Part shown: one piece after another, positions 17,384 through 64,000 of the stretch
How the letters are laid out: the number at the start of each line of letters is the position of its first letter
How positions within the stretch are numbered: the stretch's first letter is position 1
Source: Candidatus Binatia bacterium
GTDB lineage: Bacteria > Vulcanimicrobiota > Vulcanimicrobiia > Vulcanimicrobiales > Vulcanimicrobiaceae
Assembly (NCBI GenBank): GCA_035544215.1
Contig: DATKHY010000007.1
Coordinates: 124,001 to 188,000 of the forward strand
Reading direction: 5' to 3'
Length of the DNA stretch: 64,000 nt
The notes under the pieces: model-generated
What the model saw: the letters and a program-made list of their open reading frames with translations, nothing else
What the model was told of the DNA's origin: nothing
Databases searched by the model: none
Made by a program: the position numbers and the translations under genes

Positions 17384-19360
17384 GTGTTTCACAGGCCTTC
17401 GCTTACGATTCGCCGGTTTTTGGTGTGCGTCGCGTGCGCCTTCGGCATCATCGCCTCCGCTACGCTGGGGGTGCGCACGGTTGCGGCCGGCGTTACCGTC
17501 GTCGTGGACGGGCGCCCCCTGTACTTGAAGCCCGGCCCCATCGAACGCGCCGGACGCGTCTTCGTTCCACTACGGGGCATCTTCGAGCGACTCGGCGCCA
17601 GCGTCGTGTACCAGAATCGTCAGATCAACTCTACGAAGGGCAGCACGAGCGTCTCGCTGCGCATCGGCTCGAGGCAGGCGACAGTGAATGGACAACCGCA
17701 GATCGTCGATGTGGCGCCGTTCATCGTCGGGGCCACGACATACGTGCCGCTGCGGTTCATCGCACAGTCGCTAGGCGCGGTGGTCAACTACAACGGAGCC
17801 ACGCGGCTCGTCGCGATCACCGTGCCCAGGTCCCAGCTGCCCCCGCCACCCCCTGTGCCGAATCCTCCGCCCGTCAGCGTCGTTACCCTGAGAGCACGGC
17901 AACCGGCGCCAGACACGCTGACCGGCAACCGCTTCACGCCGATCGCGGCGCAGTTCTCGCACGAGGTCGACGTAGACAGCGTTCGCGTACGGCTGGACGG
18001 CAACGACATCACCTCGCGCAGCGGCGTCTCGCCGGTCGGTTTTTCCTACAAGCCTCCGGCACCACTCGACTTCGGAACGCATACCGTGCGCGTCGCCGGC
18101 CTCGACCGCGCCGGGTTGCGCTTTGCGCAGTCGTGGTCGTTCACGACGACGCGGCCGGCGCCACCGAACGAGAGTCCGGTGCAGTTGCGCGGCCAGGAGC
18201 CCTCGCCAGGCGCGACGGTGAACAATCGCTTCGCGGTGATCGCGGCGGACTTCACGCCTCAGGCCGATGCCGTCAGCGTGCGTGTCCGGCTGGACGGAAA
18301 CGACATTACCTCGCGTAGCCGCGTTTCGCCGGTCGGTCTTTCCTATAAGCCGCCGGCACCACTCGAGTTCGGGACGCATACCGTACGCGTGACCGGACGC
18401 GGACGAGGCGGGTCGGCATTCGATCGCTCGTGGTCGTTCACAGTCGCGCCATCGCCCGAGAATCCGGTGCAGTTGCGCAACCAGCGGCCCTCGCCGGACA
18501 CCACCGTCGAGAATCGCTTCGCGGAGATCGCGGCAAACTTCGCGCCGGACGCCGAGCCCGCCAGCGTGCGCATCCGGCTCGACGGATATGACATCACCTC
18601 GCGTAGCGGCGTGACGGGGGGCGGTTTTTCCTACCGGCCACCGGCGCCGCTCGATTTCGGAACGCACACCGTAAACGTAACCGGCCGCGGGCGAGCCGGC
18701 TTGTCGTTCGATCGCTCATGGTCGTTCACGGTACGCCGTACCGCGCCGACCCCGATTTCCCTCACCATCAGTTTGCCAGAAGAGAACGAACTCGTCGGAC
18801 GCACCTTCGACGTCGCGGGAACCACCGCAGAGAACGCTAGAGTTCGGGTCACCGCCGGGGCTCCGCAAACGGGCACGGGTCAGTTCAGCGGCACTACGAC
18901 GGCGGGCGCGCGCGGTAACTTCAGGATCTCGGTAACCCTTAGTCCGGCACTTCTTGGCCAGCAAACGGTGACGGTAAAGATCACTGCGACCGATCAGTCG
19001 TCTTCGCAGACTGCAGAGAAAACGCTGCGCCTTCGTTTGAAGCATGCAGCTCCCACCCCGCCGCCGTTCGTCACTCCGATGCCCATGCCGACGCCCGCTC
19101 CGATCCGAACGCCGAGGCTTGTCCCGACCGTCGCTCCGACACCCATGCCGACGCCCGCTCCGATCCGCACACCGAGGATCATCCCGACCGTTGCTCCTAC
19201 CCCGGTGCCAACCGTCGCTCCGACCCGGCCTCCGAGAGTTGTCCCTACCGTCGCTCCGACCCCGGCGCCAACCCTCGCTCCGACCCGTCCACGCAGAGTC
19301 GCTCCGACCGCTTCTCCGTCGGCGACGCCGAGTGGGTCCCAGCAGCCGCGGTTGCGTTAG
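17384..19360 (+). CDS. Large surface protein: stalk domain, Ig-like repeats, Pro/Thr-rich tail
   Basis: About 658 residues from GTG at 17384, chosen for the GGAGGGAGG directly upstream. After a signal peptide comes a copper-amine-oxidase-N/stalk domain (about residues 38-145; VFVPLRGIFERLGASVVY and TYVPLRFIAQSLGA). Three near-identical repeats of about 93 residues follow (RVRLDGNDITSRSGVSPVG, FGTHTVRV, RSWSFT), then an Ig-like domain (FDVAGTTAENARVRV) and a tail of PTVAPTPAPT-type repeats. This build suggests a cell-wall or surface stalk; a carbohydrate- or adhesion-related role is inferred. Pro-rich DNA repeats span 19070-19310. Confidence 0.85.
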   Translation: MFHRPSLTIRRFLVCVACAFGIIASATLGVRTVAAGVTVVVDGRPLYLKPGPIERAGRVFVPLRGIFERLGASVVYQNRQINSTKGSTSVSLRIGSRQATVNGQPQIVDVAPFIVGATTYVPLRFIAQSLGAVVNYNGATRLVAITVPRSQLPPPPPVPNPPPVSVVTLRARQPAPDTLTGNRFTPIAAQFSHEVDVDSVRVRLDGNDITSRSGVSPVGFSYKPPAPLDFGTHTVRVAGLDRAGLRFAQSWSFTTTRPAPPNESPVQLRGQEPSPGATVNNRFAVIAADFTPQADAVSVRVRLDGNDITSRSRVSPVGLSYKPPAPLEFGTHTVRVTGRGRGGSAFDRSWSFTVAPSPENPVQLRNQRPSPDTTVENRFAEIAANFAPDAEPASVRIRLDGYDITSRSGVTGGGFSYRPPAPLDFGTHTVNVTGRGRAGLSFDRSWSFTVRRTAPTPISLTISLPEENELVGRTFDVAGTTAENARVRVTAGAPQTGTGQFSGTTTAGARGNFRISVTLSPALLGQQTVTVKITATDQSSSQTAEKTLRLRLKHAAPTPPPFVTPMPMPTPAPIRTPRLVPTVAPTPMPTPAPIRTPRIIPTVAPTPVPTVAPTRPPRVVPTVAPTPAPTLAPTRPRRVAPTASPSATPSGSQQPRLR

Positions 19361-39391: not shown

Positions 39392-40996
39392 ATGGGCCGC
39401 ATCCGCCGTCCGTTTTATTATTGTACCGCCGCGGCCCTGATCGCGCTGGCGGCGTGCACGCGCGGCGCCGGCGGGGCCGGTGGACCGCCGCACGTCCTGC
39501 GGATCGCGTACGACGGCGATCCCGCATCGCTTGTCCCGTTCGTCGCGATCGACCAGGACATCATCGCGCTCGACACGCTCTTCTGCCAGACGCTCGTCGG
39601 CCTCTCGGCCGAGAACCAGGACGTGCCAATCCTCGTGACGCGCATACCGTCGCGACGCAACGGCGACATATCTCCGGACGGCACGCAGATTACGTACCAC
39701 CTGCGTCCGGACGCGCGTTTCGCGGACGGCGTTCCGCTCACGTCGGCCGACGTCGCGTTTACGTATCGGGCCATCTTCGACCCGCGCAATCGCGCCACGT
39801 CGGTCGAGCCGTACCGCCGCGTCGCCTCGTTGCGGACGCCTGACGCGCACACCGTCGTCATGCGCCTGCGCGCGCCCTGGAACGCGGCGGTCCACGTACT
39901 CTTCGCGCAGGCCGACTTCGCCTACGGCATCCTGCCGCAGCACGCCTTCGCCGACACCAAGATCGTCGGCTCTCCCTGGGAGAACGCGCCTTTCGGCACC
40001 GGGCCGTTTCGCGTCAAGACGTGGCTGCGCGGCGATCGCATCGTTTTGGAGCCGAATCCGTACTATCGGCCACGCCCGAAGCTTGCACAGATAGTGCTGC
40101 AGATCGTGCCGAACCTCAATTCGAACTTCGTCGCGCTGCGTTCGGGCGCGGTCGACGTCGGAACCCTGACTGCCGAGAACGTCGCGCAGGCGCAGGGTAC
40201 GCCGGGAATTCACGTGGCGCGCATTCCCGAAAACGCTACGCGCCTGCTCTATCTCCAAACGCAGGCATCTCCGACCAGAGACGTGCGCGTGCGGCGCGCC
40301 ATTGCGCACGTTCTCGATTATCGCGCGCTCTCCGCGGCGTGGCGGAGCGAGTTCCGCGCGGCGACGTCGTTCCTTCCGCCGCCCATCGTGCGCTGGAGAA
40401 GCGTGGAGATCCCCGCGTATCCGCACGATCCGAGACTAGCGGGGCGCGAGCTCGACTCCGCCGGCTGGACAATGCGGCACGGCGCGCGCTCCAAGGCCGG
40501 CATCCCGCTCGGGGGACTCATCGGCGTGAACTCCGAGGATCCGATCAACGTCCGGATCGCGACGCTCGTGCAGGCGGAGCTCGCCACGATCGGAATGCAG
40601 ATGTCGATCAAAGCCAATCCCACGCGGATCTGGTTCAGCCCCGAAGGCCTGTTGCGCAACGGAAAGGCAAAGATCGTCGGCGAGTCCTGGGTCGGCGGCA
40701 GCGATCCCGAACAGTCGCTCAACCTGCGCTGCGTTCAGGCCGCCCGTGGCGGCGACAATCACTCATTCTACTGCTCGAAGCGCTTCGAGGCGCTGTTCGA
40801 CGATCAGGCGCGAACCCAGAGCCAGGCCCGGCGTGACCGCGACTTCGATGCTATGCAGGTCCTCGTCCACGACGACGTCCCGGTCATCCCGCTCTACTGC
40901 GAAGATCGGCTGATCGGCCTTCGGGATCGTGTGTCGGGCTACCGGCTCAACATGTTGTGGATCCCGGTCGACGCCGAGAGCTGGGACGTTATTTGA
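39392..40996 (+). CDS. ABC-type oligopeptide-binding lipoprotein (SBP family 5)
   Basis: 534 residues, the family's usual size. Lipobox ALAAC (Cys22). Typical signposts: LRIAYDGDPASLVPF, DGTQITYHLRPDARFADGVP, LTSADVAFTYRAIFDPRN, APFGTGPFRVKTWLRGDRIV, and DVRVRRAIAHVLDYRAL. The protein would capture peptides or other solutes outside the membrane and hand them to an OppBCDF-like transporter, but no permease or ATPase genes are adjacent, so it is an orphan. It is divergent from the NHL lipoprotein. Confidence 0.9.
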   Translation: MGRIRRPFYYCTAAALIALAACTRGAGGAGGPPHVLRIAYDGDPASLVPFVAIDQDIIALDTLFCQTLVGLSAENQDVPILVTRIPSRRNGDISPDGTQITYHLRPDARFADGVPLTSADVAFTYRAIFDPRNRATSVEPYRRVASLRTPDAHTVVMRLRAPWNAAVHVLFAQADFAYGILPQHAFADTKIVGSPWENAPFGTGPFRVKTWLRGDRIVLEPNPYYRPRPKLAQIVLQIVPNLNSNFVALRSGAVDVGTLTAENVAQAQGTPGIHVARIPENATRLLYLQTQASPTRDVRVRRAIAHVLDYRALSAAWRSEFRAATSFLPPPIVRWRSVEIPAYPHDPRLAGRELDSAGWTMRHGARSKAGIPLGGLIGVNSEDPINVRIATLVQAELATIGMQMSIKANPTRIWFSPEGLLRNGKAKIVGESWVGGSDPEQSLNLRCVQAARGGDNHSFYCSKRFEALFDDQARTQSQARRDRDFDAMQVLVHDDVPVIPLYCEDRLIGLRDRVSGYRLNMLWIPVDAESWDVI

Positions 40997-41649: not shown

Positions 41650-44331
41650 GTGATCGTCCGACCGGTACTATGCCGGCCGTTCATAGGCCGGCGTCAGGAG
41701 CTCGCCTATCTGCGCGAGCGCCGGCTCGAGGCGGGGAAGTCGCACGGCGGCCTCGTGCTGGTCGCGGGCGACGCGGGGGTCGGAAAGTCGCGCTTGATCG
41801 CCGAGTTCTGCAAGTCGCTCGCGTATTCGCGCTGGAAAATCGGCTCCGGTGCGTGCCTCGAATTCGCGAGCCGGCCGTATGGCCCGATCCTCGAGGCACT
41901 GTCGCAGGTGAATCGCGCGAAACTCGAGCTCGGAGCCGCCTCGACGCAGCGCGAACAGTTCGAGGCGATCGCCGAGCGCTTTGCGAGCATCGCCTCACGT
42001 AACGCGCTCATCCTGGTGGTCGAAGACTTGCATTGGGCGGACGCGGCGACGCTCGAGTTCCTCGCGTACCTGGGAGCGCGGCTGAATCGCATGCGCATCT
42101 TGGCCATCGCTTCCATGCGGGCCGACGAGCTCCACTCAGATCATCCCGCGACGAGCGCGACTGCGAAGATCGCGCGGAACGCCCGTGCTGGCGTTATCGA
42201 GCTCGGGCCGCTTCGCGGCTCGGAGCTGCGGCAGTTTATCGACGAGGCGCTCAGCGGCATCGCGCTGCCGGACGGGGTGCGCCGCGCAATCGCTAAGGCG
42301 GGCGACGGAAACCCGTTCTACACCGAGGAGCTTCTCAAGAGCGCGGTAGAGGAAAGCTCGCCGACTTCGAAAGCGCGCATCCAGCCGTCACTTCCGCGGA
42401 CCGTCCACGCGACGCTGCTGGAACGAATGCGGCCGCTCGATGATGCCGAACGTCGCGTCGTCACCCAGGCGGCCGTCATCGGAAGAACGTTCGGCTTGGA
42501 TTTACTTGGCGCGACGCTGGGCTGCGACGATGCACTTCTGCTGCGCGCGCTCCGCCGCGCTCGCAACCTTCAGCTCGTTGAAGAGATCCAACCGAACGTC
42601 TTTCGCTTCCGCCACGGATTGACGCGTGAAGCGATTTATCGCGAGTTCCTGAGTGCCGAGCTCCCACCTTTGCATCGGGCCATCGCACTCGCTCTCGAGA
42701 ACACGCCCGAGAGCCGGCGCTCGCTCGAGGCCCTGGCGTATCATTGGTGGGCTGCGAACGATCCGGTAAAGGCCGCCCACTATAACCGGCTCGCGGGCGA
42801 CGAAGCCGCGGCGATCTACGCGCACGAAGACGCGATCGCGTTTTACGAACGAGCGCTCGAGGTCGAAGCGGACGCGTGCTCGCGCGCGACGATCCTGCAC
42901 AAGATCGCCGATCGTCGCCTGGCGCTGGGCTCGACGTCCGAGGCGCAGGCGGCATACTCGGCGGCGGCCGACGTCTTTCGCGCGGCGAGAGAGTACGACC
43001 GCGAAGCCGGCTGCCGCGTAACAGCCGCCATCACAGCGTACGGGATCGGCCTGCCCAATCCGACGCGGCCGCTCGAGGAGATGCTGGATCGGCTCGCCGA
43101 CACCGAGCACGTCGCACGGAGCCGAGTTCACCTGGGCTTGGCGTGGCTCGCAGCGACGTTCGGGTTTCCCACGCGCGCGCTAGAGCATCTGGATCGCGTC
43201 GACCAGCGCGCCGTCGCCGACGCCGAGGGAATCGCACTGCGATTCCACAACGTCGCGGCGTTCGTGGCGATGACTGTAGGCGACGTCGAGACGTTCCGCC
43301 GCGAGCACACGGCCTGGGTAACGGCCGCGGAAGCAACCGGTTCGCTCACGACGCTGGCGGGCGCGTACACGAACGGCGCCATGTGTCGCTCCTTCTTCGG
43401 GCTGCACGAAGAGGCTCAGGCCGACATCGATCGGGCGCTCGAGCTCGCGCGTGCGGCGCGCAGCCGCCATTCCGAAGAGAGCGTACACGCGTTCGCGGCC
43501 ATGTGTTATCTGCTGCGCGGCGATCTCGAGCCGGCTCGCTCGGAGCTTGCCGAAGTCTCAGCCGCGAGCGAGAACCGCGTCAACATCACGTTCGCGACGG
43601 CGTGGGGCTCGATCATCGGCGCGACGGTCGACGACCAAACGCTGATCGACCGATGGTTCGACGGGTTTGAGAGCACGATCGGTGCGGCGCCGGAACCCGA
43701 GTGCGGCGCCGGTTTTGCCGAAATCATGGTACGCCGCGGCCGCCACCAGGACGCGGCGGCGCTTCTACATCGCGCGCTCCCCGATTGCGAGCTTTTGCGC
43801 GGCAACGTCCTCACGCTGCTCGCGGTGGCCCGCTACGGCGCGCCGGCGGACCGGGTGCGCGCGCGCCGCTACCTCGAGCGCGCTGCGGCGACAAACGCCG
43901 ACCTACCCGAACATGCGGCGCTGCAGCTCTTCGACGCGATCGCCTGCGCGCGCAGCGGTCAAACGCGGGAAGCGGCCGCGCTCGCTCGCCGCGCTGCGGA
44001 GGGCTTCCGGCGCCTCCGCTACCCGCTGCTCGAAGCGCAGGCCCTCGAACTCGCGGGCGACGCCGCGGGCGCGCTGGAACTGTATCGACGGTGTGGTGCA
44101 CTGCACGACGTACGCCGGCTCAGCAGTGCCTCCGAAATCGAGGGACTCTTGTCCGCGCGCGAGCTCGAGGTGGCGACGCTGGCCGCGGGCGGACGCTCAA
44201 ACATGGAGATCGCGCGCGAACTCTCGATCACCCACAAGACAGTCGAAAAACATCTCGGATCTGCGTACCAGAAGCTCAACATCTCGTCGCGCACGCAGCT
44301 CGACGCCTACCTGACGCCGCACCGCGACTAG
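41650..44331 (+). CDS. LuxR-family regulator with AAA/STAND ATPase and TPR domains
   Basis: 893 residues from a GTG. Walker A is AGDAGVGKS (residues 39-47), Walker B LILVVEDLHWAD (about 118-129); a winged-helix region follows, then TPR-like helices (about 390-800), and a C-terminal LuxR HTH (LSARELEVATLAAGGRSNME, IARELSITHKTVEKHLGSAY). MalT-like proteins of this build switch on transcription when a ligand frees the ATPase. Target genes and ligand are unknown. A truncated copy of its middle lies directly upstream. Confidence 0.88.
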   Translation: MIVRPVLCRPFIGRRQELAYLRERRLEAGKSHGGLVLVAGDAGVGKSRLIAEFCKSLAYSRWKIGSGACLEFASRPYGPILEALSQVNRAKLELGAASTQREQFEAIAERFASIASRNALILVVEDLHWADAATLEFLAYLGARLNRMRILAIASMRADELHSDHPATSATAKIARNARAGVIELGPLRGSELRQFIDEALSGIALPDGVRRAIAKAGDGNPFYTEELLKSAVEESSPTSKARIQPSLPRTVHATLLERMRPLDDAERRVVTQAAVIGRTFGLDLLGATLGCDDALLLRALRRARNLQLVEEIQPNVFRFRHGLTREAIYREFLSAELPPLHRAIALALENTPESRRSLEALAYHWWAANDPVKAAHYNRLAGDEAAAIYAHEDAIAFYERALEVEADACSRATILHKIADRRLALGSTSEAQAAYSAAADVFRAAREYDREAGCRVTAAITAYGIGLPNPTRPLEEMLDRLADTEHVARSRVHLGLAWLAATFGFPTRALEHLDRVDQRAVADAEGIALRFHNVAAFVAMTVGDVETFRREHTAWVTAAEATGSLTTLAGAYTNGAMCRSFFGLHEEAQADIDRALELARAARSRHSEESVHAFAAMCYLLRGDLEPARSELAEVSAASENRVNITFATAWGSIIGATVDDQTLIDRWFDGFESTIGAAPEPECGAGFAEIMVRRGRHQDAAALLHRALPDCELLRGNVLTLLAVARYGAPADRVRARRYLERAAATNADLPEHAALQLFDAIACARSGQTREAAALARRAAEGFRRLRYPLLEAQALELAGDAAGALELYRRCGALHDVRRLSSASEIEGLLSARELEVATLAAGGRSNMEIARELSITHKTVEKHLGSAYQKLNISSRTQLDAYLTPHRD

Positions 44332-50011: not shown

Positions 50012-50367
50012 GTCGTCGCCAGCTTCGCCTTCGGGGCCGCATCCAAGGAGCGCTCGTGGACGTCGCGCACGACCGACTCGAGCTCGTCCACGTACGCGAG
50101 GAATCGCTGACGCCCGCGCTTGGTGATGCGATAGATGCTCAGCGGCCGGCCGGCGCCGCGCTGCTTGTCCGTCGCCACGATTCCGACCTCGGCCAGCGCG
50201 TGGAGATGCCGGTTCAAGTTGCCGTCGGTCAAGTCGCAGGCGCCCTGCAGCTCGGTGAAGCTCAGCCCATCCGGGTGCGCGGTCAGGCACGTGCAGATCG
50301 CGAGGCGTCCGCGCTCGTGAAAGATGCGCTCGAGCCCGGGATATGAAAACGGCGCTTGATTCGACAT
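50008..50367 (-). CDS. Winged-helix transcriptional regulator
   Basis: 119 residues. The HTH reads GRLAICTCLTAHPDGLSFTE, LQGACDLTDGNLNRHLHALA, then the wing IVATDKQRGAGRPLSIYRIT and a helical tail FLAYVDELESVVRDV. This is the ArsR-like HTH_34 type common next to a membrane protein of the same operon. Ligand unknown. The ATG follows the membrane gene's TAG directly, and its TGA overlaps uppS, an unusual pairing that could link envelope synthesis to this regulator. Confidence 0.85.
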   Translation of the reverse strand: MSNQAPFSYPGLERIFHERGRLAICTCLTAHPDGLSFTELQGACDLTDGNLNRHLHALAEVGIVATDKQRGAGRPLSIYRITKRGRQRFLAYVDELESVVRDVHERSLDAAPKAKLATT

Positions 50368-50964
50368 CTACGCCCTTTCGCGCCAGATGAGATAGCCGAT
50401 GCACAGCTGGCCGATCCCGAAGCCGATCGGCATTACCCACCACGCGAGCGCCTGCGCGGTCAGCGGCGTGACGAGAAAGACGAGCGCGAGTGCGGCAAAC
50501 CCGACGGTAATCGCCATTGTGGAAGCCGGTATCGCTCCGCGCGATGCAAAGAGCCCCATTGCGTAAAACGCGAACCACGTCCCGGGGAGCAAGAGATACG
50601 CGGCGTGATCGATGAGCGCGAGGCTCAGCGCGCCGCCCAACACGATGCTCGGCGCGATCGAGATCGCGGCCGTGCGAAAGCGGCTCCTCTCGCCGGGCGC
50701 GCGATGTTTGAGCAGCCATGCCGCCGCCGCGCCGTAGTTGAGCGCGAGTCCGACGGCCAAGCAACTCAGCCAGATGGCGAGATACGTATGAAACGCATCC
50801 TCGGTCCGCGGCAACGGCACGAGACGCTGCTGGACGGCCGCGGCCACGAGCGCGCCGAGACCGCTCGCCGCGGCCGCCGCGCCGGAATAGCCCTCGAAGC
50901 GCTGAAGGTGCGCGAGGCGCTCGCGGACTTCCGCGAGGTCGGAAAGGGCGCGTTGCAACTCCAT
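50368..50964 (-). CDS. Integral membrane protein of the regulator-uppS operon
   Basis: 198 residues. A helical, charged N-terminus (LQRALSDLAEVRERLAHLQR) precedes about six hydrophobic helices, such as AAAASGLGALVAAAVQQRLV, YLAIWLSCLAVGLALNYGAA, ISIAPSIVLGGALSLALIDH and LALVFLVTPLTAQALAWWV. This architecture is the usual partner of HTH_34 regulators; function unknown. No separate promoter was recognised. Confidence 0.75.
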   Translation of the reverse strand: MELQRALSDLAEVRERLAHLQRFEGYSGAAAAASGLGALVAAAVQQRLVPLPRTEDAFHTYLAIWLSCLAVGLALNYGAAAAWLLKHRAPGERSRFRTAAISIAPSIVLGGALSLALIDHAAYLLLPGTWFAFYAMGLFASRGAIPASTMAITVGFAALALVFLVTPLTAQALAWWVMPIGFGIGQLCIGYLIWRERA

Positions 50965-51072
50965 CTCTTAACTTTGTATCACAGAGCTTGGCGAAAAGCA
51001 ACGCTACGAAGGCCGAGGAGCTGCAGCAAGGCCCCCGAAAGCTGCGTCATCACAAAACTCGGAGGTTACGGC

Positions 51073-52422
51073 ATGAGGCGAGCGCCGCTTGTAGAGCTCT
51101 TCTTACTTATTGCGCTGGCCGGGTGCTCGCTGCACCAACAGGCAAGCAGCGGCGCCGCGCCGGCTGTGCTTCCCGCCGCGGTAACCGGCCCGCGGTCGAA
51201 GATCCAGCACGTCGTCATCATCTTTCAAGAGAACCGTTCCGTCGACAACCTCTTTCATGGCCTTCCGGGAGCCGACACGGCGAACTACGGCTACAACTCC
51301 CACGGACAACAAGTACAGCTGCAGCCGATCCCGCTGACGGAGCGCTACGACATCTCGCACCAGCACAGCAACTTCCTGACCGAGTACGCGAACGGTGCGC
51401 TCAACGGCTTCAACCTCGCGAAATCGAACTGCTCGCGTGGAGTGCAATGCCCTCCCAAAGACGTGCGCGCGTACGCGTACGTTCCGCAGAACGAGGTGCA
51501 GCCGTACTTCTCGCTGGCCGAGCAGTACGCGTTTGCCGATCGGATGTTCCAAACGAATCAGGGGCCGAGTTTTCCGGCCCACCAGTACATCGTGAGCGGT
51601 ACGTCGACGATCTCACAGGGTTCGCCGCTACGCGCGGCCGAAAATCCAAAGACGCCGCAGGGGACGTTCACGGGCGGTTGCGACTCGCCGTCCGGATCGC
51701 TCGTTGCGTTGATCGATCCTTACGGCCGCGAAACGCGCCAGGTCTTTCCGTGTTTCGAACGGCCGGCGCTCAGCGACCTGCTCGCGGTGAAGGCGCTAAC
51801 CTGGTCCTACTACCAGCAAAGGAACGGAGCCGGGCTGTGGAACGCCTTCGACGCGATTCAGCACATCCGAGACGGCGGAGATTACCGCAAACACGTAATC
51901 GAGCCGCCGGAAAAAGTGATCAACGCCATCACTGGCGGCCAGCTCGCGAACGTCGTCTGGGTTACGCCGACCCTCGAAGATTCCGATCACCCGGGAAACA
52001 ACGGCTCGGGACCGTCCTGGGTCGCCTGGATCGTCAACACGATCGGGAAGAGCCCGTACTGGAACAACACTGCGATCTTCATCACTTGGGACGACTGGGG
52101 CGGATGGTACGAGCACGTGAAGCCCCCGCAGTACAACTCGTACGAACTCGGCTTTCGCGTCCCGCTGATCGTCGTCTCGCCCTACGCCAAGACCGCCTAC
52201 ATTTCGCACAAGCGGCACGAGTTCGGCAGCATCCTGAAGTTTGTCGAAGAGACGTTTAACCTCGGCTCGCTGGGTACGACCGACGTCCGCGCGGACGATC
52301 TTCTCGATTGCTTCGACTTCTCGCGCGCGCCGCGTCCGTTCAAGACGATACAGGCGCCTCTGCACGGCGATTCCTTCTTACGCCGGCCCCTCGCGCAGCA
52401 GAATCCCGACGACGACTTTTAG
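51073..52422 (+). CDS. Secreted phosphoesterase lipoprotein (acid phosphatase/phospholipase C family)
   Basis: 449 residues from ATG 51073 with GGAGG upstream; the open frame before it is spurious. Lipobox ALAGC (Cys18). Motifs: IFQENRSVDNLFHGLPGADT (Glu53-Asn54 expected metal ligands), GPSFPAHQYIVSGTSTIS with candidate nucleophile Ser, TPTLEDSDHPG, FITWDDWGGWYEHVKPP and KRHEFGSILKFVEETF. Probably hydrolyses phosphate esters outside the cytoplasm. It converges on a mannosidase-like gene, perhaps part of nutrient scavenging. Confidence 0.9.
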   Translation: MRRAPLVELFLLIALAGCSLHQQASSGAAPAVLPAAVTGPRSKIQHVVIIFQENRSVDNLFHGLPGADTANYGYNSHGQQVQLQPIPLTERYDISHQHSNFLTEYANGALNGFNLAKSNCSRGVQCPPKDVRAYAYVPQNEVQPYFSLAEQYAFADRMFQTNQGPSFPAHQYIVSGTSTISQGSPLRAAENPKTPQGTFTGGCDSPSGSLVALIDPYGRETRQVFPCFERPALSDLLAVKALTWSYYQQRNGAGLWNAFDAIQHIRDGGDYRKHVIEPPEKVINAITGGQLANVVWVTPTLEDSDHPGNNGSGPSWVAWIVNTIGKSPYWNNTAIFITWDDWGGWYEHVKPPQYNSYELGFRVPLIVVSPYAKTAYISHKRHEFGSILKFVEETFNLGSLGTTDVRADDLLDCFDFSRAPRPFKTIQAPLHGDSFLRRPLAQQNPDDDF

Positions 52423-54461: not shown

Positions 54462-57140
54462 TTATAGCGCTTCCGCCACGGCCTGCTCTTCGCTCAACGC
54501 CGCGCCCGCCGCGAGCAGCCGCGCGAGCTCGGATTTTTCGATCGCGTCCGCCAGCAGTTCGTTGAGCCGATCGACGAATTTCCGCTCGAACGGGACGAGC
54601 TGCCACTCCGCGGCTCGCAACGCTTCTTCCGCGTAGCCGATTAGTCGGGCCGCGAGTGAGGGATCGCGGCGCGCCTCGATCACCGCGACATACGCGATCG
54701 ACAGGGCGGTGAGCACGCGATGGTGAGCCTTCGCCGCCGCAGCGAGCGCCTCGCGCGCCATCGGCTCGGCCCGCTCCAGATCGCCGGTGGCCAGGAAGTA
54801 GCCGGCCACGTCGTTCAAGGTGAACATCTTCACCACGTCGCGCTGGTCGAGCCGGCTCGCCTCGAGCATCAGCTCGGCGGCGGCCCGGAAGTCGCCGGCA
54901 GTTTCCGCTTCCCATTGCGACCACCATTCCAGCGCGCGTGCGGTCTCATAATCCCGGCCGAGCGCGCGGAAAAGCGCGACGCTCTGCTCGTAGCGCACAC
55001 GGACCGCCTCGTCACCCTCGCTGCCGAACGCCTGCGCGCAGCGGCGCAGCGTATCGGCCAACAGCCGCCGATCGCCGATCTCGCCGGCCAGCCGCAGCGC
55101 TTCTTCCGCAACAGCCCGCGCGTCCTCGTAGCGGCCCTGCAGCGCGTAGCGCGACGCGACCTGCGATAGCGCTTGAGTCAGTCCACGCGCGTCCCCAGCC
55201 TCGCGATACAGTGAGACCGCGATGAGCGCCTGCTCGAGCACTTTCTTATTCGCGCCGACATTGCTGTAGAGCATCGACAGTCCGTAGCGCAGGCGAGCCT
55301 CGACTGCCCGGGGCAGCGGCGATTCGGCTGCGAGAACGCGCTCGCACCATTCGCAGCCCTCCGACAGCAGGGCAAGGCGCAGGAACATCGGCGTCGTGTC
55401 GGCCGCGAGGCGCGCGCCCGCATCGGGGTCATTTCCTTCCCCGACGGTCCAGCCGAGCGCGGCCCGAAAGTTCCGGAGATCTCGTTGCAAACGGGCGAGC
55501 CAATCGGAGCGCGGGCCCTGGTCCCACTCGTCATACGCCGCGCGCGCCAGCGCCGCGAATGCGTTCGCGTGGCGCCGCGCGATCTCGGCGGTCTCCCCGC
55601 CCGCGAGCAGCTTTTCTTCCGCGTACTGCCGGATCGGCTCCAACAAGCGGTAGCGCCGATCCGGCGCGCCCGGCTCGAGAACGACGAGCGACTTATCGAC
55701 CAGCGACGCAAGCCGGTCGGGCACGCCCCAAGGATCGGCGTCGTCGCCACAGACGGCGCTTGCAACGTCCAGCGAAAAATCGCCCGCGAAGAGCGCACAG
55801 CAGCGTAAGCAGCGCTGTTGATCGGCCGGCAACAGATCGTAGCTCCAGTCGATCGTCGCTCGCATCGTTTGCTGGCTCGGGCGCCGGTCGCGTCCGCCCG
55901 CCAGCGTCCGCAGCTGCAGGCGGCCCGCGAGCTCCGGCATCGACATTGCCCGCACGCGAGCGGCGGCCAGCTCGATCGCGAGCGCCATGCCGTCCAGACG
56001 CGCGCAGATCGCTTTTATCGAGTCGGCGTGCGCGGCGGCGTCAAAGTCTGGCTCCGCCGCGCACGCCCGATCCGTGAAGAGCTCGACGGCCGATTCGAGA
56101 TCGAGCGACGACAAACGGTAGACGCGCTCGCCCGAGATGTCGAGCGGCTCGCGGCTCGTCGCGAGCACGCGAATCCCCCTGCACCGCGCGATCACCGCGG
56201 CCACGATTGCGGCGACACCCGCCATGAGTTGTTCGCAGTTGTCCAGCACGAGCAGCAGCTCGCGCTGCGCCAAGTAGTCGAGAAGGTCGTCCATCGGCTC
56301 TCGGCCGGGCGAAGCCTGTGCTCCCAGCGCAGAGAGAATCGCGCCCGCAACGAGCGCGGAGTCGTCGAGCGCCGACAGGTCGACGAACCACGCGCCGTCT
56401 CTCTCGTCGTTGAGGCGGCCGGCCGCTACCTCTAGCGCGCACCGCGTCTTCCCGATTCCTCCGGCGCCGACGATCGTCACGATCGCGCCCGCTTCTGCGA
56501 GCGCCTCGACCCGCGCGACGTCGCGGTATCGGCCGACGAAGCTCGTGATCTGGCGCGGGAGATTGTTCGGCGGCGTCTGCAGCGCGCGCAGCGGGTTGAA
56601 GTCGGAGCGCAATCCCGTCGCAATCGCCTGATAGACGCGTTCGGGTTCGCGCAGTCCCCGCAGCGGAAGCGTCCCGAGATCGCGCAGCGTTATCCCGGGC
56701 GACGGCGTCGCGCGCGCGAGATCCCCGGCGAAACCCGCGAGCAGAATCTGTCCGCCGCTTCCCGCCGAGAGCAGGCGCGACGTGCGGTTTACCGCGGGAC
56801 CGAAGTAGTCGCCGGAGCGCTCGTCGGCGTCGCCGGCTCCTATGGAGATGCGAACCGCGAGCCCCGCGACCGCGGCGAAATCTTCACGTCCGAGCCGGCG
56901 CTGGATCTCGACGGCCGATTCTAGGGCGTCGCCGATCGTCCAGAACGCGGCGCAGAATGCGTCGCCGATCGTCTTGAAGACGTATCCGCGGCGCCGCTCG
57001 ATCTCGTCGCGGAGGATCTCGTCGTGCCGTCGCACCGCATCGCGCATTGCCTCGCCCGCCGTATCCCAGCGGCGCGTGCTGCCTTCGATGTCGGAAAACA
57101 AAAAGACGACCGTCCCCGTTGGAAGCGCGTTACCCTCCAC
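54462..57140 (-). CDS. Nucleotide cyclase-AAA/STAND regulator with TPR-like tail
   Basis: 892 residues from a GTG. Class III cyclase domain (1-170): metal Asp17 in FLFSDIEGSTRRW and Asp60 in TIGDAFCAAF, with AVNRTSRLL supplying the catalytic Asn/Arg. NB-ARC-like ATPase: Walker A VGAGGIGKT (224-232), ELLLVLDNCEQ, ATSREPL. Then helical repeats (about 500-870). No DNA-binding domain is visible, so it may signal through cAMP or cGMP or by binding partners. Only 23 bases separate it from the TPR-LuxR gene upstream, so they share an operon. Confidence 0.88.
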   Translation of the reverse strand: MEGNALPTGTVVFLFSDIEGSTRRWDTAGEAMRDAVRRHDEILRDEIERRRGYVFKTIGDAFCAAFWTIGDALESAVEIQRRLGREDFAAVAGLAVRISIGAGDADERSGDYFGPAVNRTSRLLSAGSGGQILLAGFAGDLARATPSPGITLRDLGTLPLRGLREPERVYQAIATGLRSDFNPLRALQTPPNNLPRQITSFVGRYRDVARVEALAEAGAIVTIVGAGGIGKTRCALEVAAGRLNDERDGAWFVDLSALDDSALVAGAILSALGAQASPGREPMDDLLDYLAQRELLLVLDNCEQLMAGVAAIVAAVIARCRGIRVLATSREPLDISGERVYRLSSLDLESAVELFTDRACAAEPDFDAAAHADSIKAICARLDGMALAIELAAARVRAMSMPELAGRLQLRTLAGGRDRRPSQQTMRATIDWSYDLLPADQQRCLRCCALFAGDFSLDVASAVCGDDADPWGVPDRLASLVDKSLVVLEPGAPDRRYRLLEPIRQYAEEKLLAGGETAEIARRHANAFAALARAAYDEWDQGPRSDWLARLQRDLRNFRAALGWTVGEGNDPDAGARLAADTTPMFLRLALLSEGCEWCERVLAAESPLPRAVEARLRYGLSMLYSNVGANKKVLEQALIAVSLYREAGDARGLTQALSQVASRYALQGRYEDARAVAEEALRLAGEIGDRRLLADTLRRCAQAFGSEGDEAVRVRYEQSVALFRALGRDYETARALEWWSQWEAETAGDFRAAAELMLEASRLDQRDVVKMFTLNDVAGYFLATGDLERAEPMAREALAAAAKAHHRVLTALSIAYVAVIEARRDPSLAARLIGYAEEALRAAEWQLVPFERKFVDRLNELLADAIEKSELARLLAAGAALSEEQAVAEAL

Positions 57141-57163
57141 GGGTTGGTCGTCTTCTTAATTGG

Positions 57164-58699
57164 CTAGTTCGTGCGGCGGATGAGCGGGACGACCGGCCGG
57201 GAAAGCACTGCCACCAGCTCCGCGCGGCTCTTCACGTTGAACGTCTGAAAGAGCTGAGCGAGCTGATTGCGCACGGTGTGCGGACTTCGTCCGAGCACTC
57301 GCGCGATCTCAGAGTTCCGCCGGCCCGCACGCACGAGCTCCAACACCTCACGTTTTGCGGGTGGAATGCGGTCCAACGGCACGACCGCCGCGCTACTCGC
57401 CTCGGCAATTCGGCGCGCGATCCAGCTGCGCGGCCACGGGTCGATCTTCCGAGCCGCGCGATGCACCCATCGTCGATCCCGCGTGGCCTCGAACAGTCCG
57501 AGCGCGCAGAGCGCGGCGCGCCACGCGTAGTTGAAATCTTCAAAGATGTCCCAGGCCTCGGTGAGCGCCGCCTTGCCTTCCTGTGCGTCGCCGAGGCGCA
57601 GCCACGCGACACCCTGCGAGTACGCTTCGAAGCCGCGCACGCGCGGGTCGGTGCCGTACGAGAGCAACGGGATCACCGTGGACCCCAGCGACCGGAAACG
57701 CGCGAGGTATTGCTCGGCTATCGCCGCGTTCTCATGTGCGAACAGCTCCGCGAGTACGAGCAATGCCGAGCGTTCCTCGCCGGTGACGTCGTTCCACGAG
57801 AGCCGTTGTGCGATCTCATGCGCCTCCTGGAGCTGCTCCGCCGCGAATGCAGTCTCGCCGGTGTTCTTCGCCAGCAACGCGCGATCGAGGAAGCACAGGA
57901 CGCTCCAGTGCTCGGACGGCGCGAGGCGCATCGCCTTCTTGAAGCCGGCGAACGCGGCGAGTTCGTTCCCCTCCAGTTCCTCCATCGCCGCGATGAAGCG
58001 CGTGATCTGAAACCGCGCCAACTGGAGGCCCGGCGTCCACGGCATCGCATCGAAGATGCTCCGCACGCGCTCGGCGACGTCGCGCAGCTGCAGCTCGCGG
58101 CACAGCAGCGCCAGCGTGAACAGCGCGTTGGCGCGGAAATATTGATCGGGCTCAGACGCGACGTCGAGCTCGTCGAGCGCCTTCTGCAGTTCATCGACCT
58201 GCTTCAAGACCTCGCCGCGGCGCAAAGCGATCCAGGAAAGAATGATACGAGCCCGCGCGCGATTGTTCGGATCGGTGGAATTGAGCTGCACGTTGGCGGC
58301 GTCTTCCGCCTCGCGATGCTCGTGCTGCATCCACGCAATCGCCGCCTTCTGATAGAAGGCTTCGTCGTAGAACGGATCGCCTGGTGCGAGATCGTTGAGC
58401 GCGCGATCGATGAGCCTGCGCCCTGCGACGTAGTCCCTGGTCGAGCCGAGTGCCGCACCCAGCAGCACGTCGCGCTCCGCACGCATGGCAGGCGATGCGG
58501 CAGGAAAGTCCGAGAGCGCGCCAATGACGTCAACGAATCGGCGTTCGCGGATCGCCAGTCGAGCAGCCGCGAGCGCGGCATCCAGCGTGTCGCCGGCCGC
58601 AATGAGCTCACGGCAGCGTTCATAGTCCGCAGCCTTGAGTGCGCTGTTGAAGTCGTCGTGGTCGAAGACCGGACGAGCTTGTCTAACGGTTGTCAGCAT
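57164..58699 (-). CDS. TPR-LuxR transcriptional regulator
   Basis: 511 residues. Long TPR-like helical array (about 10-420): ALKAADYERCRELIAAGDTL, AAIAWMQHEHREAEDAAN, LSWIALRRGEVLKQVDELQK, ALFTLALLCRELQLRDVAER. A C-terminal LuxR HTH (about 440-500: LDRIPPAKREVLELVRAGRR, NSEIARVLGRSPHTVRNQLA). It lacks the ATPase of MalT-type regulators, leaving the TPR array as the likely sensor, as in peptide-binding RRNPP regulators of Gram-positives (analogy only). It lies 99 bases after the repeat lipoprotein. Confidence 0.85.
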   Translation of the reverse strand: MLTTVRQARPVFDHDDFNSALKAADYERCRELIAAGDTLDAALAAARLAIRERRFVDVIGALSDFPAASPAMRAERDVLLGAALGSTRDYVAGRRLIDRALNDLAPGDPFYDEAFYQKAAIAWMQHEHREAEDAANVQLNSTDPNNRARARIILSWIALRRGEVLKQVDELQKALDELDVASEPDQYFRANALFTLALLCRELQLRDVAERVRSIFDAMPWTPGLQLARFQITRFIAAMEELEGNELAAFAGFKKAMRLAPSEHWSVLCFLDRALLAKNTGETAFAAEQLQEAHEIAQRLSWNDVTGEERSALLVLAELFAHENAAIAEQYLARFRSLGSTVIPLLSYGTDPRVRGFEAYSQGVAWLRLGDAQEGKAALTEAWDIFEDFNYAWRAALCALGLFEATRDRRWVHRAARKIDPWPRSWIARRIAEASSAAVVPLDRIPPAKREVLELVRAGRRNSEIARVLGRSPHTVRNQLAQLFQTFNVKSRAELVAVLSRPVVPLIRRTN

Positions 58700-58798
58700 T
58701 AGTCCCCGTGTAGTGGATGACAGAGCGTGATGCCAGGGCGCCGGTGGTAACCCGCCGGACGGCGGCTTTTCTATTGTGGGTCCGAGTTAGCCTCCGTG

Positions 58799-59050
58799 CT
58801 ACCTAGGTAAACCACCACCGACCGAGTCACCCTGATGCATCTTCAGCGCCGGTTTGGGTATACCACCGCCGACCGAATCCAGTTGGTGCATCCTCAGCGC
58901 CGGTTTGGGTATGCCACCCCCGACGGAGTCGAGTGAGTGGAGTTGGCTGGCAGCCGGGAGGAGAGACCCGCCGCTCATGCTACCCCCGGCGCATCCGCCG
59001 AGAATAGCCGCGCCGAGCGCAAGGGAGACCGCCACGATGGTCTTACGCAT
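58799..59050 (-). CDS. Small lipoprotein of 17-residue tandem repeats
   Basis: 83 residues. Lipobox ILGGC (Cys20), a short Ser/Gly linker, then repeats: LHSLDSVGGGIPKPALR (37-53), MHQLDSVGGGIPKPALK (54-70) and MHQGDSVGGGLPR (71-83). Only a few residues vary. The DNA repeats are about 51 bases and differ at silent sites, implying selection on the peptide. I know of no named family. Tandem repeats after a secretion signal are typical of peptide precursors; K/R at unit ends offers cleavage points. AAAGG lies before the ATG. Confidence 0.75.
   Translation of the reverse strand: MRKTIVAVSLALGAAILGGCAGGSMSGGSLLPAASQLHSLDSVGGGIPKPALRMHQLDSVGGGIPKPALKMHQGDSVGGGLPR
58808..58949 (-). repeat. 51-base coding tandem repeat
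   Basis: Two full units and one partial unit encode the DSVGGG-I-PKPAL peptide repeats of the small lipoprotein. Units share long identical blocks such as CAGCGCCGGTTTGGGTAT on the plus strand. Confidence 0.7.
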
Positions 59051-59303
59051 TCGTCTTACCTTTCAACGCCAGGAGGCGCCAGGAAGCACAAGTGATAGTA
59101 CGAATATACTAGTACCAAAACGCCTCCAAGGATAGGGCCGCTTGGCAAACTTTGCATCACTATCAACAAACCTAGCGGAACGATGAGTGCCATTCAAACA
59201 AGGCTAGAGGCCCAGCGCCTCCTTCGATGTCCTAGAATGAACGCGACCTTGGTCGTGGGGCCCCCCCACCGTTCTTCTCATTCATTTTCAGAGGATCTTC
59301 AAC

Positions 59304-60353: not shown

Positions 60354-61733
60354 TTACTCCGCGTCGGGGACGCGGTGGTCGGTAGGCTGACGTTTGAAGT
60401 AGCCTTTGTCGTAAGGGCTCTCGATTCGCACGAACGACCGCGGCGGATCCTTGAAATCGAAGGCATCGCGCGCGGGCGAGTTGGCGCGCGAATCGCTCGG
60501 CGCCAGCCTGGCCAGGCCGAACGTGTCCTCGACGAACTTGAGGATGCTCCCGTGCTCGTATGGCACGTGCGACACGTGGCCCTTTTTCGCGTAGGCTGAA
60601 ACGACCAGCATCGGGATGCGAACGCCGAGACCGTCGTAGTCTTTATACGCCGGCGGCTCCGGATCGTACCAACCGCCGTAGTCGTCCCAGAAGACGAAGA
60701 TCGCGGTTGAGTCCCAGTACTTCGATTCGCCGATCGCGTTGACGACCGACGCGACCCAGGAGGGGCCGGTCGTCGATTTGTTGCCGGCGTGGTCGGAGTT
60801 CTCCCACGTGGGCGTGATCCAGTTGACCGCGCGGAGATTGCCGTTCGAGACGTCGCTGAAGAACTGCGTCTGCGGCGTGATGATGTCCTTGCCCCAATCC
60901 GGACCGTTGTAGATGTGATTGATCGCCTGGTAAGCGCTCCAGATGCCTTCGTCTCCGTTGATCGTGGCCGTGTAGAAGGCCCATGAGATACCCGCCTGGT
61001 CGAGCTCGTCGCCGAGCGTGGTGGGATCCCAGCATGCGACTTCGTAGCCGGTCGGAAACTGCCGCTGCTGACCGACCGTGCCGATCATGTCACTCGGTCC
61101 GCCCGGACAGCCCCACGCGCTGAACGGATAGTTGACGCTCGACTCGGCTTGACCCGCGATGATGTATTGATGCGAGACGAAGCTGCTGGCGTCGAAGTTC
61201 GACGCGTACATCTGATCCGCGAGCACGTACTGCCTGCCAATGTCGAAGTACGGCTTCGTCTCGGAGTGCGGCACGTAACTGTACTGCGGTTCGGGAATCG
61301 GACACTTTGGCTGCGCCCGGCCGCAGCCCACGGGCTCGAGGTTGAAGCCGTTCATCTTGCAGTCAGTGCCCGGAATGCTGCCCGTTCCGTCGCACGCCTT
61401 GAGGAACGAGCCCGCGCTGTGGTCGATGTCCCACCACGTCGCGATGCTCAGCGGCCGAATCTTGATCTTTTTGTTGTTTGAGTCTAAGCCGTAGCTCACC
61501 GTCTTGGCGCGCGGGAAGCCGTAGAACAAGTTGTTCAGGCTCCGATTCTCTTGAACGAGGATGACGACGTGCTTGATCTTGCCGCGCGAGGGCCCGCGCC
61601 CAATGGCGCGATCGGGAGCGACCGCGCGCGCGGAGCCCGCGACGGGCAGGGCCGGCGCGGAGCCGGACACGGCGCTCGGTCCGCACGCCGAGAGACACAG
61701 CGCCGCAAGCGCAACGCAGGGCGTGGTTCTCAT
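60354..61733 (-). CDS. Secreted phosphoesterase lipoprotein, tandem copy 1
   Basis: 459 residues from ATG 61733, one base after the stop of the upstream copy (TAA-T-ATG); the longer open frame is spurious. Lipobox CLSAC (Cys17). Motifs: ILVQENRSLNNLFYGFP (Glu62-Asn63), YASNFDASSFVSHQYIIAGQ with candidate Ser nucleophile, TPTWENSDHAGN, FVFWDDYGGWYDPEPP and VPYEHGSILKFVEDTFGL. An extracellular phosphatase or phospholipase is inferred. It is the last gene of the tandem array. Confidence 0.92.
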   Translation of the reverse strand: MRTTPCVALAALCLSACGPSAVSGSAPALPVAGSARAVAPDRAIGRGPSRGKIKHVVILVQENRSLNNLFYGFPRAKTVSYGLDSNNKKIKIRPLSIATWWDIDHSAGSFLKACDGTGSIPGTDCKMNGFNLEPVGCGRAQPKCPIPEPQYSYVPHSETKPYFDIGRQYVLADQMYASNFDASSFVSHQYIIAGQAESSVNYPFSAWGCPGGPSDMIGTVGQQRQFPTGYEVACWDPTTLGDELDQAGISWAFYTATINGDEGIWSAYQAINHIYNGPDWGKDIITPQTQFFSDVSNGNLRAVNWITPTWENSDHAGNKSTTGPSWVASVVNAIGESKYWDSTAIFVFWDDYGGWYDPEPPAYKDYDGLGVRIPMLVVSAYAKKGHVSHVPYEHGSILKFVEDTFGLARLAPSDSRANSPARDAFDFKDPPRSFVRIESPYDKGYFKRQPTDHRVPDAE

Positions 61734-61734
61734 A

Positions 61735-63099
61735 TTACTCCGGGTCCGGAGCCCGGAGATCGACCGGCTGGTGCATGAAATAGGCGCGATCGTAAGGACT
61801 TTGAATCGGTACGAAGGCGCGCGGCGGTTTCGAGAAGTCGAACGCGTCTTTAACCGAATTGGCGCGACTATCGCTCGCAGAGAGTCGCGCGAGCCCAAAC
61901 GTGTCCTCCACGAACTTCAAGATGCTGCCGTGCTCGTAGTGCACGTGCGAGACGTGGCCCTTCTTCGCGTACGCCGACAAGATCAGCATCGGGATGCGTA
62001 TCCCGAGCCCGTCGTAGTCGAGGTACTTCGGGGGCTGCGGATCGTACCAGCCGCCGTAGTCGTCCCAGAAGACAAAGATCGCGGTTGAGTCCCAGTACTG
62101 CGACTCGCCGACCGCGTTGACGAGCTGAGCGACCCAGGACGGGCCAGTGTTCGAGAAGCAGCCGGCGTGGTCCGAGTTGGCGCAAGTCGGCGTGATCCAG
62201 CTCACGGCGCGCAGTTTTCCCTTCGAGACGTCGTCCAAGAAGTCGGTCTGAGGCGTGATGACGTCTTTGCCCCAGTCGGGACCGTTATAGATGTGGTTGA
62301 TGGCCTGATAAGCGCTCCAGACGCCGCCGTCCACGTCCCACTGGGACGTGTAGAATCCCCACGAGAGCCCGGCCTTGTCGAGCTCGTCGCCGAGCGTCGT
62401 GGTATCCCAGCAGGCGACCTCAAAGCCGTCGGGGACCTGGCGCTGCGGACCGACGATCGCAACTTTGTCGCTCGGTCCGCCCGGGCAGCCCCACGCCGAA
62501 AACGGCCAGTCGACCGACGATTCCGACTGACCCGCGATGATGTATTGATGCGAGACGAAGCTGCTCCCGTCGAAGTTCGACGCGAACATCTCGTCGGCCA
62601 GCACGTACTGCTTGCCCATGTCGAAGTAGGGCTTCGTCTCGCTGCCCGGCACGTACGCGTATTGCGGATGCGGAACCGGGCACGGTCCGCAGCCCGCGTA
62701 TTCCTTGTCGAAGCCGTTCATCCGGCAGTCGGTACCGGGAATGCGTCCGGTGCCGTTGCACGCCTGGAAGAAATCCTTCGAGCCGTGGCCGACGTCCCAG
62801 TGCGTTTCGAACTGGATCGGCGCGATCTTGACGCGCTTGTTGTGCGAGTCGTAGCCGTAGCGCACCGTTCTCGCGCCGGGGAAGCCGTAGAACAGGTTGT
62901 TGAGACTGCGATTCTCTTGCACGATGATCACGACGTGCTGGATCTTCCCGCTCGAAGGCCCGCGCTCGCCGCCCCGCGGCACGAAGGTACGCGACTGCGG
63001 TCCGATCGCGACCGGCGGCCCCGGCGACGCGGCCGAGCCGCCGCCGCAGCCGGCGAGCGTCAGCGCCGCGGCGGCAATCGGCAAGATTCCGAACTTCAT
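61735..63099 (-). CDS. Secreted phosphoesterase lipoprotein, tandem copy 2
   Basis: 454 residues, lipobox LTLAGC (Cys18). Motifs: IIVQENRSLNNLFYGFPGAR (Glu62-Asn63), FASNFDGSSFVSHQYIIAGQ, TPTCANSDHAGCFS, FVFWDDYGGWYDPQPPKYLD and VHYEHGSILKFVEDTFGL. It differs from copy 1 by extra Cys residues (AGCGPCPVPHP, TPTCANSDHAGC), perhaps added disulfides. It lies 10 bases after copy 3's stop and overlaps copy 1's start region, so the three form one operon. Confidence 0.92.
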   Translation of the reverse strand: MKFGILPIAAAALTLAGCGGGSAASPGPPVAIGPQSRTFVPRGGERGPSSGKIQHVVIIVQENRSLNNLFYGFPGARTVRYGYDSHNKRVKIAPIQFETHWDVGHGSKDFFQACNGTGRIPGTDCRMNGFDKEYAGCGPCPVPHPQYAYVPGSETKPYFDMGKQYVLADEMFASNFDGSSFVSHQYIIAGQSESSVDWPFSAWGCPGGPSDKVAIVGPQRQVPDGFEVACWDTTTLGDELDKAGLSWGFYTSQWDVDGGVWSAYQAINHIYNGPDWGKDVITPQTDFLDDVSKGKLRAVSWITPTCANSDHAGCFSNTGPSWVAQLVNAVGESQYWDSTAIFVFWDDYGGWYDPQPPKYLDYDGLGIRIPMLILSAYAKKGHVSHVHYEHGSILKFVEDTFGLARLSASDSRANSVKDAFDFSKPPRAFVPIQSPYDRAYFMHQPVDLRAPDPE

Positions 63100-63109: not shown

Positions 63110-64000
63110 CTATTCCGCGTCCGGGATATGATAATCCGGCGGCTGATGCAGGAAAAAGTCGCGATCGTACGGCGCGTAGATTTTCACGAACCTTCGCGGC
63201 GGCGCGCTGAAATCGAAGCAATAGCGTGCTGGAGAGTTGGCCCGCGAGTCGCTGGCAGCCAGTCTTCCCAAGCCGAACGTGTCTTCCACGAACTTCAAGA
63301 TGCTGCCGTGCTCGTAGTGCACGTGTGAGACGTACCCCTTTTTCGCATAGGGCGACACGACTAGCATCGGCAACCGCATACCGAGGCCGTCGTAGTCTTT
63401 GTAGGCGGGCGGCTCCGGATCGTACCAGCCGCCGTAGTCGTCCCAGAAGATGAACATGGCGGTCGTTTTCCAGTACTTCGACTCGCCGACCGCGTTGACG
63501 AGCGACGCGACCCACGACGGACCCGTCTTCGAGCCGCTGCCGGCGTGATCGGAGTTCGGCCACGTCGGCGTAACCCAGCTAACCGAGCGCAGCTTGCCGC
63601 TCGAAACGTCGGTGAGGAACTGCGACGGGGGAGTGATTACGTCGCTTTTCCAGTCGGGGCCGTTGTAGATGTGGTTGATCGCCTGGTAGGCGCTCCAGAT
63701 GCCGGGACTCCCGCTCGAATACCCGACCGCGTAGTACGCCCAGGAGACGTGCGCCTTGTCGAGCTCGTCGCCGAGCGTGTTCGGATCCCAGCAGACGACC
63801 TCGTAGCCACTGGGAATCTGGCGTTGCGGCCCGACCTCCTGGACCACGTCGCCGGGTCCGCCGGGACAGCCCCAGTTGCTGACGGGATAGTCGACCGCCG
63901 ACTCCGCCTGACCCGAGATGATGTACTGATGCGAGATGAAGCTGCTCGCATCGAAATTCGACGCGTACATCCGGTCGGCGAGCACGAACTGTTTGCCGAC
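63110..64000 (-). CDS. Secreted phosphoesterase, tandem copy 3 (N-terminus beyond the window)
   Basis: About 297 codons are visible; the frame runs through the window edge, so the N-terminus with the signal and QENRS motif is outside. Visible: FVLADRMYASNFDASSFISH, YIISGQAESAVDYP, GCPGGPGDVVQEVGPQRQ, VTPTWPNSDHAGS, FIFWDDYGGWYDPEPPAYKD and VHYEHGSILKFVEDTFGLGR. The candidate nucleophile Ser and Asp pair are intact. It is the first known gene of the array. Confidence 0.92.
   Translation of the reverse strand, partial: VGKQFVLADRMYASNFDASSFISHQYIISGQAESAVDYPVSNWGCPGGPGDVVQEVGPQRQIPSGYEVVCWDPNTLGDELDKAHVSWAYYAVGYSSGSPGIWSAYQAINHIYNGPDWKSDVITPPSQFLTDVSSGKLRSVSWVTPTWPNSDHAGSGSKTGPSWVASLVNAVGESKYWKTTAMFIFWDDYGGWYDPEPPAYKDYDGLGMRLPMLVVSPYAKKGYVSHVHYEHGSILKFVEDTFGLGRLAASDSRANSPARYCFDFSAPPRRFVKIYAPYDRDFFLHQPPDYHIPDAE

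Follow-up and report, generated by a model that had tools for sequence, protein, structure and literature searches.

A repeat-peptide precursor paired with a TPR-LuxR regulator: a probable peptide-signalling module in Candidatus Eremiobacterota

Peptide quorum sensing through cytoplasmic TPR receptors is described, in the literature that was searched, in Bacillota and in their phages, plasmids and other mobile elements. Enterococcal pheromones of the cAD1/cCF10 type are cut from the signal peptide of a lipoprotein, and streptococcal SHPs contain one peptide copy each. Tandemly duplicated pheromones are known from phage Phr propeptides (PMC11343458), and the survey with RRNPP_detector covered only Firmicutes and viruses (PMC10075063). 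We found no description of TPR/LuxR peptide signalling in Eremiobacterota or in Gram-negative bacteria in the open-access literature. Here we describe a locus from the genome of a soil bacterium of a nearly uncultured phylum; its relatives are Candidatus Eremiobacterota MAGs. The locus lies in the window (the whole stretch of 64,000 nucleotides that was analysed) and consists of three consecutive genes on the minus strand: a precursor gene, a TPR-LuxR regulator that starts 99 bases on, and a cyclase/NB-ARC/TPR gene a further 23 bases on. The features are collected in Table 1.

Table 1. Features of the precursor/TPR-LuxR locus, in window coordinates
Feature	Position	Strand	Evidence
Precursor of 83 aa: lipoprotein with a signal sequence and three units around DSVGGG	58799..59050	(-)	Translation, TRF, genus orthologues, pN/pS 0.29 against sister species
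Signal sequence and lipobox-like ILGGC, Cys20	58991..59050	(-)	Translation; kept in genus orthologues
Repeat unit 1, LHSLDSVGGGIPKPALR	58892..58942	(-)	Translation, TRF
Repeat unit 2, MHQLDSVGGGIPKPALK	58841..58891	(-)	Translation, TRF
Repeat unit 3, truncated, MHQGDSVGGGLPR	58802..58840	(-)	Translation, TRF
Operator-like box GTACTAGTATATTCGTACTA	59096..59115	(-)	Conserved alignment block, genome scans, family-wide enrichment
RNA hairpin pairing with the precursor Shine-Dalgarno AGG	59059..59086	(-)	Weak, z -0.9 to -1.9; one compensatory change
511-aa TPR-LuxR regulator, putative transcription factor and candidate receptor for the peptide	57164..58699	(-)	Pfam, AlphaFold, fold comparison
LuxR/GerE helix-turn-helix, regulator residues 450-498	57206..57352	(-)	PF00196, E 1.5e-8
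Class III cyclase + NB-ARC + TPR protein, 892 aa, probably co-transcribed genus-level accessory	54462..57140	(-)	Pfam; locus comparison

The earlier note on this DNA had described the precursor as a repeat lipoprotein, and this description was found to be real: translation and TRF gave a signal sequence, ILGGC with Cys20 and three DSVGGG-centred units in tandem (period 51 bp, 2.3 copies, score 161). The further statement that it consists almost entirely of repeats stood only in part; the repeats are present, but of the 63 residues that follow Cys20 they make up about 47, with the conserved repeats beginning at about residue 37, downstream of the lipobox. The precursors of the genus contain between 2 and 12 copies of units such as DSVGGGPP, SVGGGPPVSP and VVGGGPTPAG. 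Lipidation is not general, as many precursors elsewhere have no Cys and many relatives have an ordinary signal sequence. For three other precursor pairs, pN/pS was 0.11, 0.18 and 0.49 (the value for the window precursor is in Table 1). Within one gene, the copies of the DSVGGG unit differ almost entirely at third codon positions, a bias that is inflated because the units were chosen by their amino-acid pattern. From their sequences, the precursor genes look translated and constrained, as under purifying selection.

We searched 98 related genomes with the precursor as query, taking an E value below 1e-5 as a clear match; such matches belonged to the same genus. The regulator, used as query in turn, gave a single close orthologue (69-94% identity) in nearly all genus members. 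In every genus genome that had both genes on one contig, the precursor was directly upstream of the TPR-LuxR orthologue. In three genomes (G010, G014 and G016), the precursor was at the end of one contig and the regulator at the start of another, and in G013 the regulator was present only as a truncated gene at a contig end. The genomes without a close regulator orthologue (G004, G015 and G017) had no clear precursor and no operator box, although these absences are weak evidence because the genomes are 63-85% complete. A precursor without a regulator was also sought in the 98 genomes, and the strong matches all lay beside the regulator or at contig ends. Thus the core idea of the earlier note, that a repeat-peptide precursor is paired with a TPR-HTH regulator, withstood the refutation set for it beforehand: in the genus, no precursor was found anywhere but next to the regulator or at a contig end. 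The co-occurrence of DSVGGG lipoproteins with the TPR-LuxR gene was borne out in the genus, with independent pairs across the family, and the pairing pattern is much wider than that note could see.

These independent pairs came from diverged regulators in other genera, which were found by the regulator query, and about 130 TPR-LuxR loci were scanned upstream. Upstream of the diverged TPR-LuxR genes we repeatedly observed short ORFs that start with a hydrophobic segment and encode a small peptide, often in several copies. The repeated peptides include DTPGGPI (three copies, L096), DTIGGGF (three, L158), DSIGGPL (two, L154), DGTSGNPDH (two, L161) and DVQSGSPA (four, one of them changed, L164). 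Other peptides were DTSGGPM/DSSGGPM (L074), TDGGGSMP (L067, L070 and L071), NDSGGIMTGD (L075), and DSVGGMSGG and DSTGGMDGD (L068 and L073), and a neighbouring family had GSHPPY or GTLPPY (L092, L099). Many precursors hold a single short peptide in 38-65 aa. The source genome itself has three precursor/TPR-LuxR pairs (L037, L067 and L068).

We counted an ORF as such a case if it was 30-210 aa long, had a hydrophobic N-terminus, contained D-x(1-3)-GG and ended no more than 200 bases upstream of the gene. ORFs of this kind preceded 14 of the 18 close and 47 of the 115 distant regulators, as against 2 of 258 control genes, which were taken from the window and from randomly chosen stretches of the same genomes; among the other genes of the regulator loci, the count was 1/133. 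We rely on the size of this effect and not on a P value, because the D-x-x-GG pattern was set after examples had been seen and the sequences are phylogenetically related. The control counts, together with the purifying selection, lead us to reject chance or an annotation artefact. When placed on a tree of the regulators, the peptide classes fall into clades, and some TPR-LuxR clades had no such precursor upstream in the scanned loci. Precursor-like ORFs whose repeats lack the GG motif were also seen before TPR-LuxR genes (DTGTTTGK, three copies, in L165; ASWGAIIVG, two copies, in L147), and the D-x-x-GG count therefore probably underestimates the pairs. In a separate TPR-LuxR clade (L064, L087, L091, L103, L119, L122, L126, L132 and L152), an exported carboxypeptidase-regulatory-like protein ends 4-60 bases upstream, in place of the peptide precursor.

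The regulator had been read earlier as a TPR array with a LuxR HTH and no ATPase. Pfam agreed on the HTH (Table 1) and gave no ATPase; it gave no TPR above its cut-off in the 511 residues, and the TPR-type helical array was seen with AlphaFold, which, given 128 homologues, modelled a helical TPR superhelix followed by the HTH (pLDDT 93). The model was compared with known folds using VIA-align on Foldseek candidates. The best PDB match was MalT domain III (Z 23.1), and pheromone receptors followed, namely Rap Phi3T with its pheromone (Z 21.2), RapI (20.5), Rap with CSF (20.0), RapF-PhrF (19.9), AimR (19.3) and NprR-NprX (17.9). Generic TPR proteins (LGN, APC subunits) were interspersed among these top matches; since they score nearly as high, peptide binding is compatible with the fold but is not demonstrated by it. 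In a profile search against PDB sequences the matches were to generic TPR and LuxR proteins, with no RRNPP receptor among the best 60 of 200. Four residues (R201, E282, E318 and W393) were much more conserved in regulators with a precursor than in those without, a comparison that is confounded by clade. When an in-frame precursor-linker-regulator read-through was modelled with AlphaFold, the peptide was disordered (pLDDT about 30) and did not dock, an uninformative outcome that lends no support to binding.

When the regions upstream of the genus precursors were aligned, one conserved block stood out amid otherwise diverged DNA. Its 20-bp core, GTACTAGTATATTCGTACTA, contains a 16-bp TAG-N10-CTA inverted repeat, TAGTATATTCGTACTA, and overlaps a TATATT -10-like hexamer. 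In the window the core had no chance matches. In a scan of 18 genus genomes that allowed up to 3 mismatches, it was found before the precursor only and essentially once per genome; G009 has two overlapping copies, and G003 has a single extra match that is at the level of the reversed-pattern control. Each of the other clades has a palindrome of its own at a similar position (e.g. TAGTCAATTTTGACTA, TAGCCCAATTGGGCTA, TAGCTGATTTCAGCTA and GGTACGATCGTACC). A TAG-N10-CTA box lay 15-110 bases before 35 of 69 precursors (eleven of the 69 being from genus members with a nearly identical box) and before 1 of 227 control genes; 33 of the 35 boxes had at least 5 of 8 positions paired, and the background was 9 sites per 400 kb. 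Several loci have two boxes 14 bases apart. Binding of this box by a dimeric LuxR-type protein is the natural inference, and the neighbouring regulator would be the natural candidate.

The strict box showed no regulated target outside the locus itself in the 18 genus genomes. The looser pattern TAGY-N8-RCTA occurs at 38 sites in the source genome, 4 of them at its three TPR-LuxR loci. Orphan precursors were sought behind the 34 remaining sites, and the longest downstream ORFs at 25 of these included no repeat peptide. In the sister genus, extra TAGTAC-N4-GTACTA-like boxes are seen right after the regulator (L052, L113) or right before it (L108, L110), so that the regulator or the downstream gene may also be under the regulator's control. 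A hairpin lies directly before the precursor start, in which the Shine-Dalgarno AGG pairs with an upstream UCCU; it is kept in the genus loci L038-L050, with at least one compensatory change (in L039), and this conservation suggests translational control of the precursor. No Rfam family of known RNA elements was found in the region.

The cyclase/STAND gene was as reported earlier (Guanylate_cyc, NB-ARC and TPR domains, no HTH, and a start 23 bases after the regulator stop), but its proposed place in the core system was not supported. It follows the regulator throughout the genus (57-73% identity) and is absent from the sister-group loci, and we therefore regard it as an accessory or output. 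The source genome encodes ten OppA-type binding proteins (SBP_bac_5) and one signal peptidase II (LspA), so lipoprotein export and peptide uptake are possible in principle. Linkage of an OppA gene to the regulator was considered and discarded, as SBP homologues occur in only 3 regulator loci. An OppA-type peptide-binding protein (PF00496) and an AAA-TPR-LuxR (LAL/MalT-like) regulator do stand side by side 18 kb from the module (window 39392-40996 and 41650-44331). Phosphoesterase-like exported proteins surround the module (window about 50356-52422, 60354-61898, 61735-63099 and 63110-63985; PF04185 was confirmed for 60354-61898, and the other calls are from similarity of the translations), and homologues flank it in other genus genomes too. 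Other coding-length tandem repeats of the window are at 17977-18730 and 19069-19310 (288-bp and 60-bp units).

We consider an autoregulated secreted-peptide/TPR-LuxR signalling module to be the best explanation of this locus, and a probable one. The pairing, the export-signal architecture, the conservation of the repeats, the operator-like box and the receptor fold were observed by comparison. The small gene would encode an exported precursor with several copies of a short D-x-x-G-G peptide, sent out as a lipoprotein here and via an ordinary signal sequence in many relatives. Outside the cytoplasm the precursor would be cut to short peptides, and these would be re-imported, probably via an oligopeptide ABC importer, to bind the neighbouring TPR-LuxR protein at its TPR superhelix. 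The LuxR domain would in turn bind the inverted repeat in the precursor promoter, giving a feedback loop that acts on precursor and receptor and, within this genus, also on the cyclase-STAND gene. We infer export, processing, uptake, peptide binding and DNA binding, as well as whether the feedback is positive or negative and which behaviour it would control. It counts against the module that, if the cell is diderm as presumed, a precursor anchored by lipid would need further steps of release and uptake. For the family as a whole, we lean, a little less firmly, towards independently evolved peptide pheromone systems, in which multi-copy D-x-x-GG precursors each have their own TPR-LuxR receptor and a matching TAG-N10-CTA operator, diversified clade by clade and often with several pairs per genome.

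The repeat peptides could instead be effectors (e.g. antimicrobial, surface or matrix), with the TPR-LuxR protein as a local transcription factor that senses something else. A regulator dedicated to such an effector would also give a box at the precursor promoter, the large number of copies in a precursor and the rapid change in repeat number (2-12 copies) suit a bulk product, and MalT, the top fold match, is a sugar sensor (its inducer is maltotriose). However, no conserved immunity, transport or modification gene was seen with the pair, the receptor clade and the peptide class go together, many precursors offer just one short peptide, and some peptides (DTPGGPI) are too small and plain for a membrane-active effector; we regard this reading as unlikely, though it is the strongest of the rivals.

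A sensor of export status would have even less to recommend it. Here the unexported precursor would bind the cytoplasmic TPR-LuxR protein when secretion or lipoprotein transport is blocked, and so report envelope stress with no cell-to-cell signal. A signal sequence with a cytoplasmic TPR partner, a local loop that closes on itself, with a single box in each genome, and the Shine-Dalgarno-pairing hairpin would all fit, but the many copies of a peptide conserved at the amino-acid level and the clade-specific peptide sequences are left unexplained, and non-lipoprotein precursors are common. We hold it to be improbable. That the small ORF is a cis-acting leader (an attenuator-type uORF) of the regulator mRNA, whose product has no role in trans, is very improbable: signal sequences, a lipobox, purifying selection and repeat arrays of up to 203 aa are not features of a leader, and the Rfam search also speaks against it, even if the ORF is always just upstream of the regulator and co-directional and has hairpins around it.

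For the signalling module, the recurrence of the repeat-precursor/TPR-LuxR arrangement with different peptides across the family suggests a hitherto unreported way in which bacteria communicate by peptides. If true, this diversified Eremiobacterota counterpart, which differs in its DNA-binding domain and has lipoprotein precursors, would mean that such logic emerged independently or spread beyond the groups known to use it. It would also supply predictions of signal peptides and operators in a phylum that is scarcely amenable to culture, and these predictions, being short, inexpensive peptides and boxes of 16 bp, are directly testable.

Among known systems, the module resembles the RRNPP(A) group (Rap-Phr, NprR-NprX, PlcR-PapR, Rgg-SHP, AimR-AimP) in having an adjacent exported propeptide, short C-terminal peptides and a TPR receptor; the regulator matches Rap, AimR and NprR at Z 17.9-21.2, a likeness of fold only, in which generic TPRs also score high. 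It differs in the LuxR/GerE HTH, which is C-terminal here (450-498 of 511) and N-terminal or absent (Rap) in RRNPP, in its peptide motif and lipoprotein precursors, and in its host, which belongs to Eremiobacterota and not to Bacillota or their mobile elements. At 511 aa the receptor is also marginally outside the 250-500 aa that RRNPP_detector uses (PMC10075063). The module would work like RRNPP quorum sensing, yet we do not file it there because of the type and position of the HTH and the phylum. The enterococcal sex pheromones (cAD1, cCF10) likewise have a lipoprotein gene as the source of a peptide signal, but here the repeats are in the mature part, after Cys20, and many of the relatives are not lipoproteins. 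With MalT and the LAL regulators (ATPase-TPR-LuxR) the regulator shares a TPR superhelix followed by a C-terminal LuxR HTH, MalT domain III being the best structural match; it lacks the N-terminal ATPase (AAA/NB-ARC), which ruled out filing it as a LAL, and a dedicated small gene for an exported precursor adjoins it. The streptococcal SHP-Rgg systems have a receptor HTH that is unrelated, but they share very short precursors with the module, and SHP pheromones that start with Asp and end with Gly-Gly appear to resemble the D-x-x-GG peptides.
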